Shown: positions 7,600 to 15,875 of the stretch, piece after piece | How the letters are laid out: every line of letters starts with the position of its first letter | Position numbering within the stretch: position 1 is the first letter of the stretch | Source of the DNA: a virus | Direction: 5' to 3' (one strand) | Virus record (IMG/VR): IMGVR_UViG_3300025695_000006 | Coordinates: 16,331-80,330 of that record | DNA length: 64,000 bases | Translations under genes and position numbers: made by a program | The notes under the pieces: model-generated | Told to the model about the DNA's origin: nothing | The model's input: only the letters and a program-made list of their open reading frames with translations | Databases searched by the model: none

Positions 7600-10365
7600 T
7601 TATATGTCGTTAATTGGTGCTACACCAAAATCAACTACATAATTAGCACTACCAAATTCGGTTTTGGCCATTGTAGCCTCTATATATTTACCGAACATTT
7701 GTGGATCAGCGTCATAAAGTTGTTTAGCTGTTATATTTTTAATTCCGTTTGGTGTATCATGTTCTATTGTACCTGATACGTTTACGGTCATTGTTGACGT
7801 ACTGTTATTATTAGATGAATAGGTGTTTCTTGCCGCCATTTCGTCTATAAAAGCTACCGCATCGCCTGGGGAACCTTTTATTAACCTACCGTTTGAGTAG
7901 ACCATAGCATCCTTTACGGGTTCTTCAGGTATGTGTCGGAGGTCCGATAAAGATTCTGCGTTATAACCCTCTTTCGTTCTAAGTTTATCTCTTAGTTCCA
8001 TCTCGTATGAGTTGTTATCTGCGTTAGTTGAAACAAGCCCTGTTATGGCATCGGTCATTTGTGCCCCAGATAATTGTAGTGATATCCTAGCTTGTCTTTG
8101 CCAATCTTCGGTATCCGCACCTACTAAATAACCTACCCCAGACATAAGACTGTAAGCTGTACCTTCGAGCATATTTAAAACCCCAGAAGCAGTTCTTGTA
8201 AAAAAATTATTACTGCTTTCAGATTGACTTAAGCTTTTTGCTGCCTGGTCCATTAGTTTGTTGGCCGATTCTCTACCACCAGCCATTGCTACAGTTCCCT
8301 TTACTACGTTACCGTCGGAATCTCTGAACGATTGACCTATTAATTGTTGACCAGCGCTGTTTAGGGAATCACCAACTAAAGGTAGGTCTTTTAATGAGGT
8401 AAATATGTTTCCGAAGATGTATTGTACGTATGGTAGTATCGTGTTAGCCATGAACTTAATCATACTTTGCATCACATTTTGTATTTTTGTGAAGAACGGA
8501 CCTTCTCCATCCATCATTTTTTTTGAGCTGTCTAAGAATTCATTAAAATCATTTAGGAAGAAATTTAAACCTGTGGATAAAACACCTCCTGGTGCAAAAG
8601 CTGAATCTATAAAGGGTATCATCTGGTCAGATATTGCTGAACCTAAATCCTCTATCTTCTTTAAAGTACCTTCGTCTTCTAAGAATCTAGTTAAATTTGT
8701 GAATAATGGTGTTAATCCTATGGCGAATCTATCTAAAACAATAGCAAACCTTTGACTTAAATTTAATCTTTCTTGGGCGGCATTTTCGTTTGCTCTTCTA
8801 GCTGATAATATATTTTGTAATTGATCTTCGTTAGTTATACTGCTAACTAATTTACTAACACCGTTAGGCATTTTTATTTCATATTTCCCACCCTTGTTCA
8901 TTGTTATTAGGTTGGATAATGATTGTTTATCATCTTCACTAAAATTTATTAGTGAACCAGATGATTCACTTAAACTCATTAATTTGTCAGATGTTTTAGC
9001 CTGTTCTATAACAGCATTAGCTATTTGATCAAAATTTTGACCTAGAGCTTCAGCCTGCTCTTTTAATATCTGACGTTGGGCTGGTGGTATGATGAATTGA
9101 TTGTTTTTGTTCTTAACAGCTAAGTTTCTTGCACTATCTATTAATTTTTCAGCCATACCATCGGCATTGTTCATTGAGTCGTACATTAACGAGGCTGGGT
9201 CTCCAAATTGTTGGGCCATCTCACCACCTAATACTTGTATTTTTGCAGCCGCCTCAACAGCCTTTTCTGGACTGAAGAATGCGTCTTTAAACGATTTAAT
9301 TGATTCGGCTAGATTAAACCTTAAAGATTGTGATTTTGCTGCTAATTTAGTTAAATCCTCAACACTTCTACCAAAAGCACTACCAGTTAGATTTTTAACT
9401 ACGTCTGTAGTTGTTTTTAATAACTTAGTTTGGTTTATATTAAACTTAGCTGCTACATTCCTGCCTTTATCAGCCGTTTTCATTGTAGTTTTCATTGAAT
9501 AACCTAAGTTATCAAATTCACTAACCATTTCAGTAACACCTTTAACACCTAAGCCAGTACTGTACCCTAGTTTAACTATGTCTTCTATCTCACTATTACT
9601 AAATAAACGATTTTTACCAGTGTTATTACTGAACTCGTTTATGATGTTTGCTATGTCCTCTATTTTACCTCCGTAACCAGCTATATCGTTGTATAGTTGG
9701 GGCATGTTATTCATTAAACCCCTATACTCTTTGTTGGTTAACCCTATATCAGCAGAGAGGCCTCCAACGGCTGACTGCATGTTTAAGAACATTTTCCAGG
9801 CTTTCTCTATAGGGAATATGGTTTTAAATATAGCGGTACCTATTGATAGCGCCATTTTAAATATACCACTTAATGGACTTAATAGGTTTCCAGCTATATT
9901 ACCTATATTACTAACACCAGCCATAACACCACCTAGTTTACTACTAGCTTTCTTGGCCATTTTGTAATTAACGTCAGCTATTTCTTTTTCTACTTTAGCT
10001 TGTTTAATTTTATTAGATAGGTGTATTTTCTGTTCTTTAGATAGTTCTTTAGATAACTTTTTTTCAATATCACCCATTCTTTTGATGGCTTTATCTTGTT
10101 TAGCTAGATCTTTCTTAACCTTTTTTAGATTATTAGCATCATCTATTTTACCTTTAGCCCATCTTTTAATATTTTTACCTATAGTTTCAGATTTTAAATC
10201 CCATTTAAACGATTCCTCTTTTTTAGAAATAATAGCTTCATGCATGTTTAACATGCGGTTCATTTGCTCTTCTTGTTTAGCTCCGTCTATTATACCCTCT
10301 TTCCTAGCCTCGTTTAGAGCCTTTGAAGCGTTGAGTATGTCTTTCATGAAATCACCTTGTGCCAT
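7600..10365 (-). CDS. tape-measure-like protein, second paralogue
   Basis: 921 residues. A long, Lys/Glu-rich, predicted coiled-coil N-terminal third (about 30-140) precedes a hydrophobic stretch (about 145-195). A central domain (about 200-480) follows, then a Gly/Ser-rich C-terminal part with further hydrophobic helices (about 600-680, 730-760). This architecture is usual for tail tape measures, which set tail length and pass through the tail tube into the host envelope. The protein is clearly homologous to its upstream neighbour: both begin MAQGD, and the central domains share NRLF, LG-GVKG/LGAEG, NLGYS, LGG and IEQ-K-DKL blocks. It follows that gene by 62 nt, with a TATTTATA box in between. 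Tape measure is inferred from architecture and position; a baseplate hub/lysozyme-like role is not excluded. Confidence 0.65.
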   Translation of the reverse strand: MAQGDFMKDILNASKALNEARKEGIIDGAKQEEQMNRMLNMHEAIISKKEESFKWDLKSETIGKNIKRWAKGKIDDANNLKKVKKDLAKQDKAIKRMGDIEKKLSKELSKEQKIHLSNKIKQAKVEKEIADVNYKMAKKASSKLGGVMAGVSNIGNIAGNLLSPLSGIFKMALSIGTAIFKTIFPIEKAWKMFLNMQSAVGGLSADIGLTNKEYRGLMNNMPQLYNDIAGYGGKIEDIANIINEFSNNTGKNRLFSNSEIEDIVKLGYSTGLGVKGVTEMVSEFDNLGYSMKTTMKTADKGRNVAAKFNINQTKLLKTTTDVVKNLTGSAFGRSVEDLTKLAAKSQSLRFNLAESIKSFKDAFFSPEKAVEAAAKIQVLGGEMAQQFGDPASLMYDSMNNADGMAEKLIDSARNLAVKNKNNQFIIPPAQRQILKEQAEALGQNFDQIANAVIEQAKTSDKLMSLSESSGSLINFSEDDKQSLSNLITMNKGGKYEIKMPNGVSKLVSSITNEDQLQNILSARRANENAAQERLNLSQRFAIVLDRFAIGLTPLFTNLTRFLEDEGTLKKIEDLGSAISDQMIPFIDSAFAPGGVLSTGLNFFLNDFNEFLDSSKKMMDGEGPFFTKIQNVMQSMIKFMANTILPYVQYIFGNIFTSLKDLPLVGDSLNSAGQQLIGQSFRDSDGNVVKGTVAMAGGRESANKLMDQAAKSLSQSESSNNFFTRTASGVLNMLEGTAYSLMSGVGYLVGADTEDWQRQARISLQLSGAQMTDAITGLVSTNADNNSYEMELRDKLRTKEGYNAESLSDLRHIPEEPVKDAMVYSNGRLIKGSPGDAVAFIDEMAARNTYSSNNNSTSTMTVNVSGTIEHDTPNGIKNITAKQLYDADPQMFGKYIEATMAKTEFGSANYVVDFGVAPINDI

Positions 10366-10393
10366 ATATTAAATTTAGTGTATATCTCTTAAG

Positions 10394-10401
10394 TATAAAT
10401 A
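10394..10401 (-). promoter_or_regulatory. TATTTATA box, putative late promoter
   Basis: Minus strand reads GTATTTATAC, 28 nt before the ATG of the second tape-measure-like gene. It matches the recurring box found upstream of virion genes in this window. Confidence 0.5.
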
Positions 10402-10427
10402 CAAAAGAAATTGTTTTATAGTTATCA

Positions 10428-13136
10428 TTAACTTAAATTATTTATCATTTGTTGTAGTACCATTTTAGATGACATAATAACGGTGTCATCAACGGTTTTA
10501 CTGTCTACTGACAAGTTATTATATTTATTTAGTATCCTACCACTTAATACTATATTAACTTTTCTGTGTCCGCTAGCATTAAATCCGTTAGACAAACTGT
10601 TAATATAGTTTAGTGCGTCACCTTTTTTACCTTTATAGGCAGAGCCGTCTGGTCTAATGACAAGATCTTGGGCTGTTTCTACCGAATAATCCTTCTGCGA
10701 ATCTATACCAGCATTTACTGCGTCTAGAGCCATACTCCCTGCTGTACCTGCTCCTGGTAATGTGGATAATACACCAGAAGCTAAAGCCATACCTGCTTGA
10801 CCAAAGTTACCCTCTATAGCATAACTAAAGGTATCCCAAAGGCCTATAGCAAGACCTACTAATGGTATTCTTTTAGCTATATTTTTAGCACCCGTTTTTG
10901 CTAATGATTTACTAATTTTTTTACCAGAAGCTCTAACCCCTGCTCCGACCGCGTTAGATGTCAAGTCTGCCTCACCATATAATTCGTTGTGTTTTTCTAT
11001 AGTTTTTTTAAGTGTTTCTAAATTGTTTTCATAAAACTTGGTACCTTTTGATTTTTCTAGACCTTTTTTTTGTAGCTCTACACCACCCTTCATTAAACTT
11101 CTACTTTTAACCGCACCTTTCGTACCTTTCTCTATACCTATACCTAATTTCTGTATGGCTATACCTGAGTAATACTCTAAGGGTCCTACTAGGTATTTAA
11201 TTAAATTATCGGTTATAATATCTTTACTATCTATTAATATTTTTGAAAACCCTTTATCTGGGTCTTGCCATACCATGATTAAATCAGTTATGATAGAATT
11301 AAAAGTTTTTAGTATATCTCTTACCGTTGAACCGAGTTCGTTAGAAAAACCATCGTTAATGAATTTAATCATTTCTGATGATATAGCTTTAACTGTTTTG
11401 TCTAGGTTATTTATAGTATCGTTTTCTGTGAAGTGTCTGTTTAACGCAACGAATATTTTGGAGAACCCTATCATAAACCTATCCGATGCTATACCTATCC
11501 TTTCCGATAAGTTTTTCCTCATTAAGGCCGATTCTTTGTTTACCCTGTCCTGGTTTATGGTTTTTAATATACTTACATTACTAGGTATTTCTGATAATTT
11601 TTTTGTCATTCCGTTAGATAATCTCATACTGTAAGATCCGTCCTCGTTTAAAGTCATTAGATTTTTAAGTAATTCAGCTTTGTCTTCACCTATATTAAGT
11701 TCTAATATACCTCTATTCTCTAGAGCTTTTAGTTTATCTAGGTCCTTACCTTGTTCTATCGCAACATTAAATAATTCTTCTGAGTCGTGTCCTAATATAC
11801 TAGCCATATTTCTTATGATCTCACGATCTTCTGGAGCTATATCGAAACCGTTTTTACCTTTAAACGCTTTACCTTTTAATGATTCTATAAGGTCTGCGGT
11901 TAATTGTTCTGGTTCTAATATACTTTTAGCCATTAAAGTAAAGGGGTGCCCAAAATAAAACCCGAATTTACCACCTAGTAGTCTAGCTTTAGCTGCTATA
12001 TCTACAGCTATTTCTGGGTTTCTAAACGCATCAGCAAAATTTTTAACCGAATTACCCACGTCTAACCTCATTTTTTCGGCTTTTAATACTAAGCTGGTCA
12101 TTCCTTTAAGTCCTATACTTATACCAAAACCAGTTAACGCTACTGTTGTTTTATCTATACTTTTTAATACCTTTGATTGGTTTAGGTTTAAGCTCATAGC
12201 TTTACCTCTAACGTATTTAGTAAAATCTAAAGTTTCATCTAATGAATAACCTAAGTTGTTAAAATTACCAACTAGTTCAGCAGCACCTTCTGCACCTAGT
12301 GACGTACCTAAACCTAGTTCTAATATACTTTCGTACTCTTTACCAGTAAATAACCTATTTCTGTTAGTTACGTCACTAAATTTAGTAAAAACTTTACCTA
12401 TATCTTCCAGGCTACCACCAACATTTAAAACGTTTAGCATGATTGAAGGTAGGTCTTCTAACATTTTTTTTGACTCGGAGGCTATTAACCCAGAATCAGC
12501 AGCTATATTACCAGATAAACTTTGTATCTTTAAGAAAAAATTATAAGCTCCTTTAATAAGATTAAGTCTAGCCATACCTAATTTCTTAAGTATATCCTTA
12601 GTAACACCAAATATAGCTTTTGCGGCACCTACTATTGCTTCACCTGCCACCATAGCTATAATAACTAGTGGGTGACCTCCTTTTAATGATTTACCTATAC
12701 CACCAGCAGATTTAGCTGTCTCTTTAGCTATTTTTTCATCAACCTCGTTAAGTTCTTTTGTAGTCTCTAGCTCAGTCCTTCTTTTTTTTAATAATTTAGC
12801 TAAATCTTTATCACCTTTTTTATTAGCTTCTTTTTCTTCTTCTCTGTAATCGCTTATTTTTTTAGTTAACTCGGATTGCTCTTTTTTGTACCTATTTTTT
12901 TTCTCACGTTCTTTTGATAAATTTTTATAAACCTTTTTAAAGTATTTAAGTAAAGTCTCCTCTTTTAAGTCAAGTTTGTAATATTCTTTCCTTCTGTTAA
13001 CTGAATCTATAGCATCATCCAACGAATCTTTTAAAAAGTTGTTTCTAGTGTAATTACTTATACTACCTTTTTTATTTAGTTCGTTTATTCTCTCTTGAGC
13101 TTTTACAAAAGCTGATGTTATATCTCCTTGAGCCAT
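10428..13136 (-). CDS. tape-measure-like protein, first paralogue
   Basis: 902 residues. A charged, coiled-coil-rich N-terminus (about 45-140, dense in Lys/Glu) is followed by hydrophobic segments (about 155-190). A central domain (about 205-480) is shared with the gene downstream, and Gly/Ala-rich hydrophobic helices lie near the C-terminus (about 755-820). It starts MAQGD like its paralogue and lies 8 nt after the unknown gene at 13145-13813, so the two are probably co-transcribed. The order gp26/gp51-like chaperones, one small gene, then tape measure matches contractile and siphophage tail operons. The function is inferred from architecture and order. Having two full-length homologues is unusual for a tape measure. 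Confidence 0.65.
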   Translation of the reverse strand: MAQGDITSAFVKAQERINELNKKGSISNYTRNNFLKDSLDDAIDSVNRRKEYYKLDLKEETLLKYFKKVYKNLSKEREKKNRYKKEQSELTKKISDYREEEKEANKKGDKDLAKLLKKRRTELETTKELNEVDEKIAKETAKSAGGIGKSLKGGHPLVIIAMVAGEAIVGAAKAIFGVTKDILKKLGMARLNLIKGAYNFFLKIQSLSGNIAADSGLIASESKKMLEDLPSIMLNVLNVGGSLEDIGKVFTKFSDVTNRNRLFTGKEYESILELGLGTSLGAEGAAELVGNFNNLGYSLDETLDFTKYVRGKAMSLNLNQSKVLKSIDKTTVALTGFGISIGLKGMTSLVLKAEKMRLDVGNSVKNFADAFRNPEIAVDIAAKARLLGGKFGFYFGHPFTLMAKSILEPEQLTADLIESLKGKAFKGKNGFDIAPEDREIIRNMASILGHDSEELFNVAIEQGKDLDKLKALENRGILELNIGEDKAELLKNLMTLNEDGSYSMRLSNGMTKKLSEIPSNVSILKTINQDRVNKESALMRKNLSERIGIASDRFMIGFSKIFVALNRHFTENDTINNLDKTVKAISSEMIKFINDGFSNELGSTVRDILKTFNSIITDLIMVWQDPDKGFSKILIDSKDIITDNLIKYLVGPLEYYSGIAIQKLGIGIEKGTKGAVKSRSLMKGGVELQKKGLEKSKGTKFYENNLETLKKTIEKHNELYGEADLTSNAVGAGVRASGKKISKSLAKTGAKNIAKRIPLVGLAIGLWDTFSYAIEGNFGQAGMALASGVLSTLPGAGTAGSMALDAVNAGIDSQKDYSVETAQDLVIRPDGSAYKGKKGDALNYINSLSNGFNASGHRKVNIVLSGRILNKYNNLSVDSKTVDDTVIMSSKMVLQQMINNLS

Positions 13137-13833: not shown

Positions 13834-13843
13834 CCTTTAAAAC

Positions 13844-13873
13844 AAAAAACCCACGATTAAGTGGGTTTTTTTT
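13844..13873 (-). terminator. rho-independent terminator after gp51-like gene
   Basis: Nine-pair stem (AAAACCCAC / GTGGGTTTT) with loop GATTAA. Reading on the minus strand, it follows the stop codon of the gp51-like frame and is followed by a T-rich tract. Both strands carry T-runs, so it may act in both directions. Confidence 0.8.
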
Positions 13874-14121
13874 TAATTTCTTTTAGATTTAGATTTTTGT
13901 ATCTCTCTTTCTCTAGATTCTTTAATTTTGTCGTTCTCTTCCATTAGTATTTCAATAAACTTTCTTCTCTCGAATACTGGCATAGTAATAACGTCACGGT
14001 ATGTAAAATTCCCGTGTTTAACTAACACATAGGATTCGTACATCATTTGAGATCTATAATCAAACGTAAGGCCAAAGAAATTTGGATGTAATGGGAAGTT
14101 CACCAAAAAAAAACTCTCCAC
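13873..14121 (-). CDS. gp51-like hub assembly protein / frameshift extension of gp26-like
   Basis: An 82-residue frame overlapping the 3' end of the gp26-like gene by 62 nt. It can be opened by a GTG at 14121, but that has no visible ribosome site; an ATG-ATG pair lies about 26 codons in. The T9 run (14105-14113) is inside the overlap, so ribosomes slipping +1 or -2 from the gp26-like frame would append this sequence. The C-terminal part is helical and charged (FDYRSQMMYESYVL, later MPVFERRKFIEILMEEN), which resembles the second part of tail assembly chaperones. In T4, genes 26 and 51 are adjacent and act in hub assembly. Separate translation versus frameshift fusion cannot be settled from the sequence. 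Confidence 0.6.
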   Translation of the reverse strand: MESFFLVNFPLHPNFFGLTFDYRSQMMYESYVLVKHGNFTYRDVITMPVFERRKFIEILMEENDKIKESREREIQKSKSKRN

Positions 14122-14818
14122 TTGGAGCTTGTATATTAATCGTTAAGTCTAGCCCAGGTTCGTTGTCGTTTAGGTACTTTCTGAATTTCGAGGAATCCAT
14201 TGGAGACATAGCGTCTACGAATTGAACAATAGCTGCTTTATCCCTAATCCCATCAACTTCTGTTATTTGATTTTGTAATCTAAGTGTCATTACTTGTGAT
14301 ATAGCGCTTGAACCTAGTTTCTTACTTCTAATCTGATCGTCTTTAATCAACTTCTCATCTTCATAAGCAGTTAGGAATTTAAATTTTACGGTTTTACCAG
14401 ATTTTGGTAGTAAGAAAGAACACTCGCCGTTATCATCAGGAGTTAAATCAACTTCTTTTATAGGAAACTGACTAATATCAATATCCTCTACAAAAGTCTC
14501 ATCTGTTTTAGGGTCTGTTAATTCTACTGGGTATATCTCACCATAACCAGTAGACCTAAGGAAGAAAATAATAGCGTTTCTATCTCCAGGTAATAAATCC
14601 CCAGCCTTAATGTCTTTGTCTAAGATTTTTTTCTCTAATAATACATCTAACACTTTACCGCTCTGTAATAAGTTTGGTGATGTTAATATGTTTTCGTCTG
14701 AAGCTGTCATGTAAGCAACTTTAACGGTGTCTTTCTTGTTTTTGTAAAACAACCCTTTTGAAGGTAATGTAATTACATCATGTGCTGGTTCAAAGTATAC
14801 TTGTTCCGAATTTTCCAT
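14060..14818 (-). CDS. 26: baseplate hub assembly protein, gp26-like
   Basis: 252 residues with the look of the T4 base-plate protein family (PF12322, gp26): an N-terminal ITLPSKGLFY motif, a central YEDEKLIKD, the block FVDAMSPMDSSKFRKYL, and the terminal GELPITSKFLWPYV. T4 gp26 is 208 residues, so this is slightly longer. In T4 it acts as a hub assembly chaperone in the cytoplasm during tail assembly. The gene lies upstream of the tape-measure block and overlaps the gp51-like frame. Its last codons before the overlap are three Phe codons forming a T9 slippery run. Confidence 0.75.
   Translation of the reverse strand: MENSEQVYFEPAHDVITLPSKGLFYKNKKDTVKVAYMTASDENILTSPNLLQSGKVLDVLLEKKILDKDIKAGDLLPGDRNAIIFFLRSTGYGEIYPVELTDPKTDETFVEDIDISQFPIKEVDLTPDDNGECSFLLPKSGKTVKFKFLTAYEDEKLIKDDQIRSKKLGSSAISQVMTLRLQNQITEVDGIRDKAAIVQFVDAMSPMDSSKFRKYLNDNEPGLDLTINIQAPSGEFFFGELPITSKFLWPYV
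14105..14113 (-). promoter_or_regulatory. T9 run, candidate programmed frameshift site
   Basis: On the minus strand the gp26-like frame reads GGA GAG TTT TTT TTT GGT. Slipping +1 or -2 here enters the gp51-like frame, which is open for a further ~78 codons. Tail assembly chaperones just upstream of tape measures are classic sites of programmed slippage: usually -1, and -2 in phage Mu. Confidence 0.5.
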
Positions 14819-14910: not shown

Positions 14911-15324
14911 ATGGCTAAAAAGAAAGTTAAAAAGAAAAATAAAATGAGGTCTGTTAGAAAAAAAATGAATGGTACTTCTAAACTAGAGACTTCTTTTGCT
15001 GAAATATTGGAATCTTTAGACATAAAATTTAAACAACATTATATGTTTAAGGATAGGGAATTTGATTTTTTACTTACGGACCATAATATTATAGTTGAAA
15101 CTCACGGTTGTTTCTACCATTGTTGTAAAGCACATAACCCAGAGGCTAAATATAGTTTTCAGAGGTCTAATTTAAAAAACGATAAACACAAGGTTAAGCT
15201 AGTCAAGTTTGATCACAACTATACTTTACTGGTTGTTTGGGAACATGAAATGAGTGAGAATAAGTTGTTAGTTGAGCGGGTTAATAAATTTATTACCAAA
15301 CACAGTAAGTTACTAAACGATTGA
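14911..15324 (+). CDS. Vsr-like endonuclease
   Basis: 137 residues with the very-short-patch-repair endonuclease pattern. A basic N-terminus is followed by a TSKLETSFAEIL helix carrying a conserved Glu, then REFDFLLTDHNIIVETHGCFYH. The latter aligns with the Asp-containing strand and the HGCFWH motif of Vsr. NLKNDKHKVK and LLVVWEHE follow. Vsr enzymes nick at T:G mismatches; stand-alone phage relatives are also known as homing-type nucleases. It is the only plus-strand gene in the tail block, sits between gp26-like and gp19, and is probably an inserted selfish or repair nuclease. Length and motifs are complete, so it may be active. Its substrate cannot be read from sequence. Confidence 0.75.
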   Translation: MAKKKVKKKNKMRSVRKKMNGTSKLETSFAEILESLDIKFKQHYMFKDREFDFLLTDHNIIVETHGCFYHCCKAHNPEAKYSFQRSNLKNDKHKVKLVKFDHNYTLLVVWEHEMSENKLLVERVNKFITKHSKLLND

Positions 15325-15386: not shown

Positions 15387-15875
15387 TTAGTAAACTAATA
15401 TACAACGATCCATTCTTAATGTTGCAGATATATCTGCGATCTCATCGTCGCTATATTCTAGAGAACCGAAATCAACGTTAGTTAAGAAAGTTCCTTGAAG
15501 AATCCATTTCTCAACAACAACACCAGTTGGGTCTAACATTTCTAATTCTATATCTTTTTTATAACCTGCGGCATAACCCATACGTCCTGTTACAGATTCA
15601 GCGTGTAAACGAACCCACTCCATCAATGCTTGAGCAGCTGAAGGTCCAATAGGGTCTTTAAATGTAACATCAATAGACTCCCAGTTAAATCTACCAGCAA
15701 CATATGTTGATGTATTTAAAAAAGGTATTTCTACTTCGTTTATTGTAACCTTTGGTCTAGATGTAGAGATCACAAACCACTCGTTAATACCTAGTGAACT
15801 TGGAAATCTTAAAATAAATCTGTTCTTCTTCTTTGGTTCGTAAGGAACAGGCATTTTCATTAATAAGTTAGCCAT
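15387..15875 (-). CDS. 19: tail tube protein gp19
   Basis: 162 residues, matching T4 gp19 (163 residues) in length and pattern. A Lys/Arg-rich N-terminus leads to NRFILRFPSSLG; then PKVTINEVEIPFLNTSTYVA, FNWESIDVTFKDPIG, and a C-terminal strand series ending ATLRMDRCILVY. It forms the inner tube of the contractile tail, polymerising around the tape measure. It is a single-gene transcript with its own TATTTATA box and terminator, as expected for a protein made in very high amount. It lies next to the tail sheath gene across a 433-nt non-coding region. Confidence 0.9.
   Translation of the reverse strand: MANLLMKMPVPYEPKKKNRFILRFPSSLGINEWFVISTSRPKVTINEVEIPFLNTSTYVAGRFNWESIDVTFKDPIGPSAAQALMEWVRLHAESVTGRMGYAAGYKKDIELEMLDPTGVVVEKWILQGTFLTNVDFGSLEYSDDEIADISATLRMDRCILVY

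Follow-up and report, generated by a model that had tools for sequence, protein, structure and literature searches.

A conserved site for putative +1 frameshifting between gp26-like and gp51-like reading frames in distant relatives of phage T4

Background

Two T4 proteins, gp26 and gp51, are counted among the hub assembly chaperones (PMC3004832). According to a 2016 review, frameshifting in the tail genes of the G-T kind is widely conserved with T4 excepted, and the frameshifts described in chaperone genes include a -2 shift in phage Mu and a +1 shift in haloarchaeal HSTV-2 (PMC5009743). The sequence CUU_U is known as a +1 slip sequence (PMC10274946). For the TAC of Vandenendeviridae and Andersonviridae a -1 frameshift at GTTTTT has been described, as have -1 poly-T signals (PMC12846349).

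The locus described here resembles several of these systems in part. As in lambda G/GT and P2 E/E', a short form and a frameshift-extended long form would be encoded between the genes for tail tube and tape measure, but those genes shift by -1 and the putative shift here is +1 on UUU-Y; the likeness noted is one of arrangement. Mu and HSTV-2 likewise reach a +1-equivalent frame in a tail chaperone gene, although the gene family is, as far as known, a different one. The TAC genes of Vandenendeviridae and Andersonviridae share a T-rich slip site at the 3' end of TAC-N and differ in their direction, -1. Outside phage tails, prfB has a +1 shift at CUU-UGA-C. T4-like tail assembly chaperone genes are the subject of Vladimirov et al. 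2022, the title of which reportedly puts forward, for T4-like phages, a mechanism different from frameshifting. No report of a +1 site in the gp26/gp51 family was found in the literature searched, which took in few subscription papers. Frameshifting of tail chaperones is already known, and it is the conserved +1 site that looks new.

Results

The window is a stretch of 64,000 nucleotides, part of an 80,330-base IMG/VR virus record. The gene order on its minus strand is tail sheath, tail tube (15387-15875; phrog_4542, E=5.8e-28), a small ORF on the plus strand, ORF1 (14060-14818, 252 aa), ORF2 (13873-14121, 82 aa counted from a GTG), a 222-aa ORF and two tape-measure-like ORFs (10428-13136 and 7600-10365). 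ORF2 is in the +1 (= -2) frame relative to ORF1. An earlier note on this DNA had placed a run of nine T in the gp26-like frame at 14105-14113 and given the overlap of the two frames as 62 nt, and both are confirmed. The two overlapping frames are placed after the tail tube gene and before the tape measure genes, with one 222-aa ORF intervening in the window, and the same order is found in isolates with an annotated TMP. Directly 3' of ORF2 there is a hairpin resembling a bidirectional intrinsic terminator (13840-13874; CCCAC..GTGGG between A- and T-tracts), recognized by reading the sequence; close relatives have a similar hairpin and T-tract at this place.

The first tape-measure-like ORF was assigned by position and length, a weak match to a tape-measure phrog and its paralogy to the second. 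The two ORFs stand in tandem (7600-13136, minus strand) and encode 902 and 921 aa that are 32% identical over the first ~600 aa, with C-terminal parts that are mostly unrelated to each other. At 733-812 the first has further matches to peptidase/endolysin-containing phrogs. The small ORF on the opposite strand between the tail tube and gp26-like genes (14911-15324, plus strand, 137 aa) is Vsr-like by eye.

ORF1 belongs to the gp26 family and would be the short, TAC-N-like form. It matches PF12322 (T4_baseplate) with E=8.7e-9 and 35.8 bits, above the curated cut-off of 24.5, phrog_150 (baseplate hub) with E=2.4e-11 and, profile against profile, T4 gp26 with E=1.3e-6. The T4 proteins gp51 and gp26 are themselves paralogues (profile E=4.8e-21 over gp51 5-202), encoded by separate genes on opposite strands, whereas the window has one gene with a putative +1 shift. 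The part of the second frame that would extend ORF1 (13873-14079, minus strand, 68 aa plus stop) diverges in a coding-like manner and resembles the C-terminal domain that gp51 has in addition. It was aligned by hhalign with T4 gp51 residues 210-251 at E=9.5e-5, with a probability of just 59%. The family phrog_634 ('baseplate hub assembly catalyst'), which covers T4 gp51 147-246, matches 4 of 18 extensions (best 6.6e-7), and DUF6760 (PF20546) gives weak matches to 8 of the 18 (best E 4.4e-5); the T4 gp26 profile gave no match to the extension. Because the extension matches the extra C-terminus of gp51 and not gp26, the predicted fusion would be the counterpart of gp51 and the unshifted product that of gp26. 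The gp51 layout, a gp26-like domain followed by an extra C-terminal domain, is found in one polypeptide here only if the shift occurs, and no separate full-length gp51 gene was found in the 80-kb record, which is possibly incomplete and holds a single PF12322 match. Judged from these similarities, one frameshifted gene appears to do here what T4 does with two.

The 314-aa fusion was modelled with CTTT read as F at the junction. The predicted structure has a mean pLDDT of 93.0 and a pTM of 0.87, and residues 252-313 are predicted to be mainly helical and to follow directly on the gp26-like domain; a confident fold model is no demonstration that the fusion is made. Comparison with solved structures gave no match by sequence and none by fold (best E 0.29), and a chaperone role thus finds no support in a known fold. 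The predicted viral proteins matched are of the gp26 type.

Relatives were collected by a protein-based scan, which gave 43 IMG/VR loci, by an alignment-based scan, which gave 80 more loci at 33-52% identity, from the isolates of a phage collection, and by a scan of bacterial and archaeal genomes, which gave 14 MAG contigs. ORF2 is again in the +1 frame in every group member in which ORF1 can be read to its end. This +1-frame group comprises 114 distinct loci (101 and 13 added later) in 22 clusters below 50% identity, and the arrangement is found in 13 loci from bacterial and archaeal MAGs and in the isolates SP-15, LIS04, GXN1, BRock, pSt2308, RM378, Mel-JY01 and immuto. A homopolymer does adjoin the frame change, as would be expected had a sequencing or assembly indel split one gene in two, but an identical frame relation in more than 100 independent assemblies and isolates refutes this explanation, the probability of which is negligible.

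Common to all is that ORF1 ends in F-[F/L]-[W/R/Y..]-P. The window spells this AAA TTT CTT TGG CCT, 25 nt downstream of the T run, and the proposed slip site is TTT CTT TGG CCT (14069-14080, minus strand). Other spellings include TTT TTT TGG CCT, TTC TTT TGG CCT, TTT TTT TAC CCT and TTT TTT CGT CC. Each of the 114 distinct loci with the motif has UUU in frame and U or C as the next base; two Streptomyces phages, outside the 114, lack the motif and have CTG TTT CGC instead. The ratio TTT:TTC is 171:6 at the site versus 677:258 elsewhere in ORF1 in the unthinned 101-locus set. Since the loci are related to one another, they were thinned by identity before testing. Below 50% identity UUU-Y is found in 22 of 22 loci and the ratio is 38:2 at the site versus 150:57 elsewhere (p=0.001); below 60% identity 46 loci remain (p=1.7e-8). 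Where the second position is Leu, 24 of 25 loci use CTT, whereas at other places Leu is most often encoded by TTA.

Synonymous identity among 85 distant loci is near background at most codons upstream, and the rise begins exactly at the first Phe, with 0.87 (expected 0.60) at this codon, 1.0 (0.59) at the second Phe and 0.70 versus an expected 0.33 at the Pro of the motif. Such a pattern would fit dual coding starting at FF and equally selection on a slip site, and the conservation of the site owes part to dual coding.

After a +1 shift at this site the P-site tRNA-Phe on UUU can pair with UUU or UUC. The window offers CUU followed by U as an alternative, with Leu CUU re-pairing on UUU as in prfB; its CUU-UGG-C resembles the CUU-UGA-C of that gene but has no stop codon in the A site, and most relatives use UUU-U. 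A -2 shift at the FF site was rejected for the TTTCTT version, as P-site re-pairing fails by mismatch. Transcriptional slippage was rejected as a general mechanism, the site variants TTTCTTTGG, TTCTTTCGT and TTTCTATTC being without a long homopolymer.

We conclude that the two frames very probably make up one tail assembly chaperone gene, with a +1 programmed frameshift at UUU-CUU-U (14080-14074) near the end of ORF1. The support consists of the frame relation, the conserved site, many relatives in which the second frame has no start codon, the extension's homology to the additional gp51 domain, and the gene order. From these comparisons we infer slippage itself, its efficiency, the P-site codon that slips and the chaperone role.

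The T run (A9 on the plus strand) was the slip site put forward in the earlier note, in which slippage by +1 or -2 would fuse the two proteins. Runs of nine A/T are not rare in the AT-rich window, which has six in 64 kb. TTT TTT TTT is nevertheless exact in all 16 distinct close sequences, the window included, that reach the site (~80-89% amino acid identity), and the final ~22 codons of ORF1, the run included, are the most synonymously conserved stretch in the whole ORF1 alignment of the clade. The run is therefore beyond chance within the clade. Outside the clade it is absent in every relative checked, though the two-frame arrangement is the same and UUU-Y persists, and as a family-wide slip site it was rejected. 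A frameshift joining the two frames, in the +1 direction that the note had allowed, has strong comparative support; what the comparison does not support is the run as the place where it happens. The note had also named relatives with a disrupted run and an independent, well-initiated second gene as what would speak against it; relatives without the run exist, but their second gene is not of that kind.

Slippage at the run itself is improbable, whether by ribosomes (-2 or +1) or by RNA polymerase aided by the CUCC-NAGU-GGAG hairpin before it. The run is invariant in the 16 sequences within strongly conserved synonymous surroundings, it permits perfect -2 re-pairing, and the +1 frame is open between it and the FF site. 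But the arrangement is shared by relatives without the run, a shift there would replace the conserved GELPITSKF strand by the unrelated peptide LVNF[P/L/R/Q]L.., and one +1-frame codon between the run and the FF site varies radically (P/L/R/Q). Around the run ribosomes may read the ORF1 frame as well as the +1 frame, and conservation alone therefore cannot pinpoint the slip.

Clade-specific synonymous conservation is also seen at 14060-14140 (minus strand), in codons ~231-246, which include the run and a CUCC-NAGU-GGRG mini-hairpin before it. This extra constraint upstream of the FF site is unexplained by a shift at that site; it may reflect another entry point into the frame, a region for initiation or a signal that promotes shifting. 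RNA structure around the run and the FF site is not more stable than that of shuffled sequences (z = -0.74), and the sequences there are too invariant for a covariation test.

Independent initiation of ORF2 is the other explanation that concerns the clade. The GTG at 14119-14121, which the earlier note took as the only early start, is the first possible one, and its leader is not AT-rich, unlike the leaders of other genes. It is followed after the T run by TTG (14104-14106) and GTG (14101-14103) in the same frame and by ATG-ATG (14041-14046), the first ATG codons of ORF2, which are kept in the close clade. The missing ribosome site, also used as an argument in the note, is uninformative because a Shine-Dalgarno-like 4-mer precedes just 1 of 48 long ORFs in the whole window. 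The near-absence of such sites, together with A-rich leaders, suggests a Bacteroidota-like host.

Expression from the GTG at 14121, from the TTG or GTG after the run, or by reinitiation at the ATG-ATG at 14046 is unlikely. The candidate starts are kept in the clade, where a conserved AGT preserves the first GTG, weak starts stay plausible in a phage without Shine-Dalgarno sites, and Vibrio relatives carry an ATG overlapping the stop. The coding signal, however, reaches upstream of ATG-ATG. Over the 15 nt that separate the ORF1 stop from ATG-ATG, divergence in the window's clade is 0.195, 0.118 and 0.468 at +1-frame positions 1, 2 and 3, compared with 0.082, 0.052 and 0.397 in the body of ORF2, and translation therefore appears to enter the frame earlier. 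There is, moreover, no ATG, GTG or TTG between the last +1-frame stop and the conserved MP motif in 22 of 85 distant loci (start-less second ORFs make up 25 of 89 after thinning at 80%), and in the locus L066 the whole second ORF is without any of the three. With no start codon before the domain, expression of these second ORFs is hardly possible without a shift. Independent initiation would also leave UUU-Y conserved where it is unneeded.

With a T directly ahead of the two Phe codons, the site would become a -1 heptamer (X XXY YYZ) of the kind found in P2. Such a T is found in 5 of 101 loci of the +1 group and, after thinning below 50% identity, in 1 of 22 versus 44 of 154 third bases (p=0.017). 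The window does not combine T TTT TTN with a -1 extension, its extension being in the +1 frame. A second group, with the extension in the -1 frame, includes Serratia BF-like and Munch jumbo phages, PA5oct, XacN1 and Vibrio T4-like phages. Its site is T TTT TTC or T TTT TTT in 18 of 18 listed loci with a T-run, most of them close relatives of each other (L139 and L162 represent a single phage). Loci with a -1-frame extension behind T TTT TTC are L130, L131, L138-L141 and L162-L173. The PA5oct extension has no start codon, and most other members have an ATG near or after the stop. Judging by these sequences, one pair of Phe codons appears to be used for +1 and -1 shifts alike.

Discussion

With a +1 shift at the FF site, most ribosomes would stop at the ORF1 stop and yield the short gp26-like form. 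A fraction would slip at UUU-CUU-UGG-C (14080-14069), some five codons ahead of this stop, enter the gp51-like frame and complete the 314-aa fusion (...ITSKF-FGLT...). The analogy of lambda G/GT suggests a coat of the short form around the tape measure protein and recruitment of tail tube subunits by the long form; both would leave before the tail is completed.

The balance tilts slightly towards frameshifting at the FF hinge as the ancestral way for the gp26/gp51 family to make both forms, with a gene duplication in place of the shift in T4. A large clade may then shift +1 on UUU-Y, and at these Phe codons the jumbo and Vibrio T4-like phages may shift -1 on U UUU UUC, the two groups differing in the base before FF and in the frame of the extension. 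If true, this would account for T4 as the named exception to conserved tail-gene frameshifting.

The comparison points to the use of a +1 shift by many distant T4-like relatives, at a short, easily mutated site. Sites for +1 and -1 shifts at one homologous position are a natural set for studying what sets the slip direction. The comparison also identifies a small ORF before the tape measure gene that is unannotated or truncated in many genomes. Among five loci (L141, L130, L048, L135 and L137), the gp51-like frame is unannotated in PA5oct, GXN1, pSt2308 and LIS04, and in Vibrio phage D479 it is annotated merely as a 30-aa fragment.
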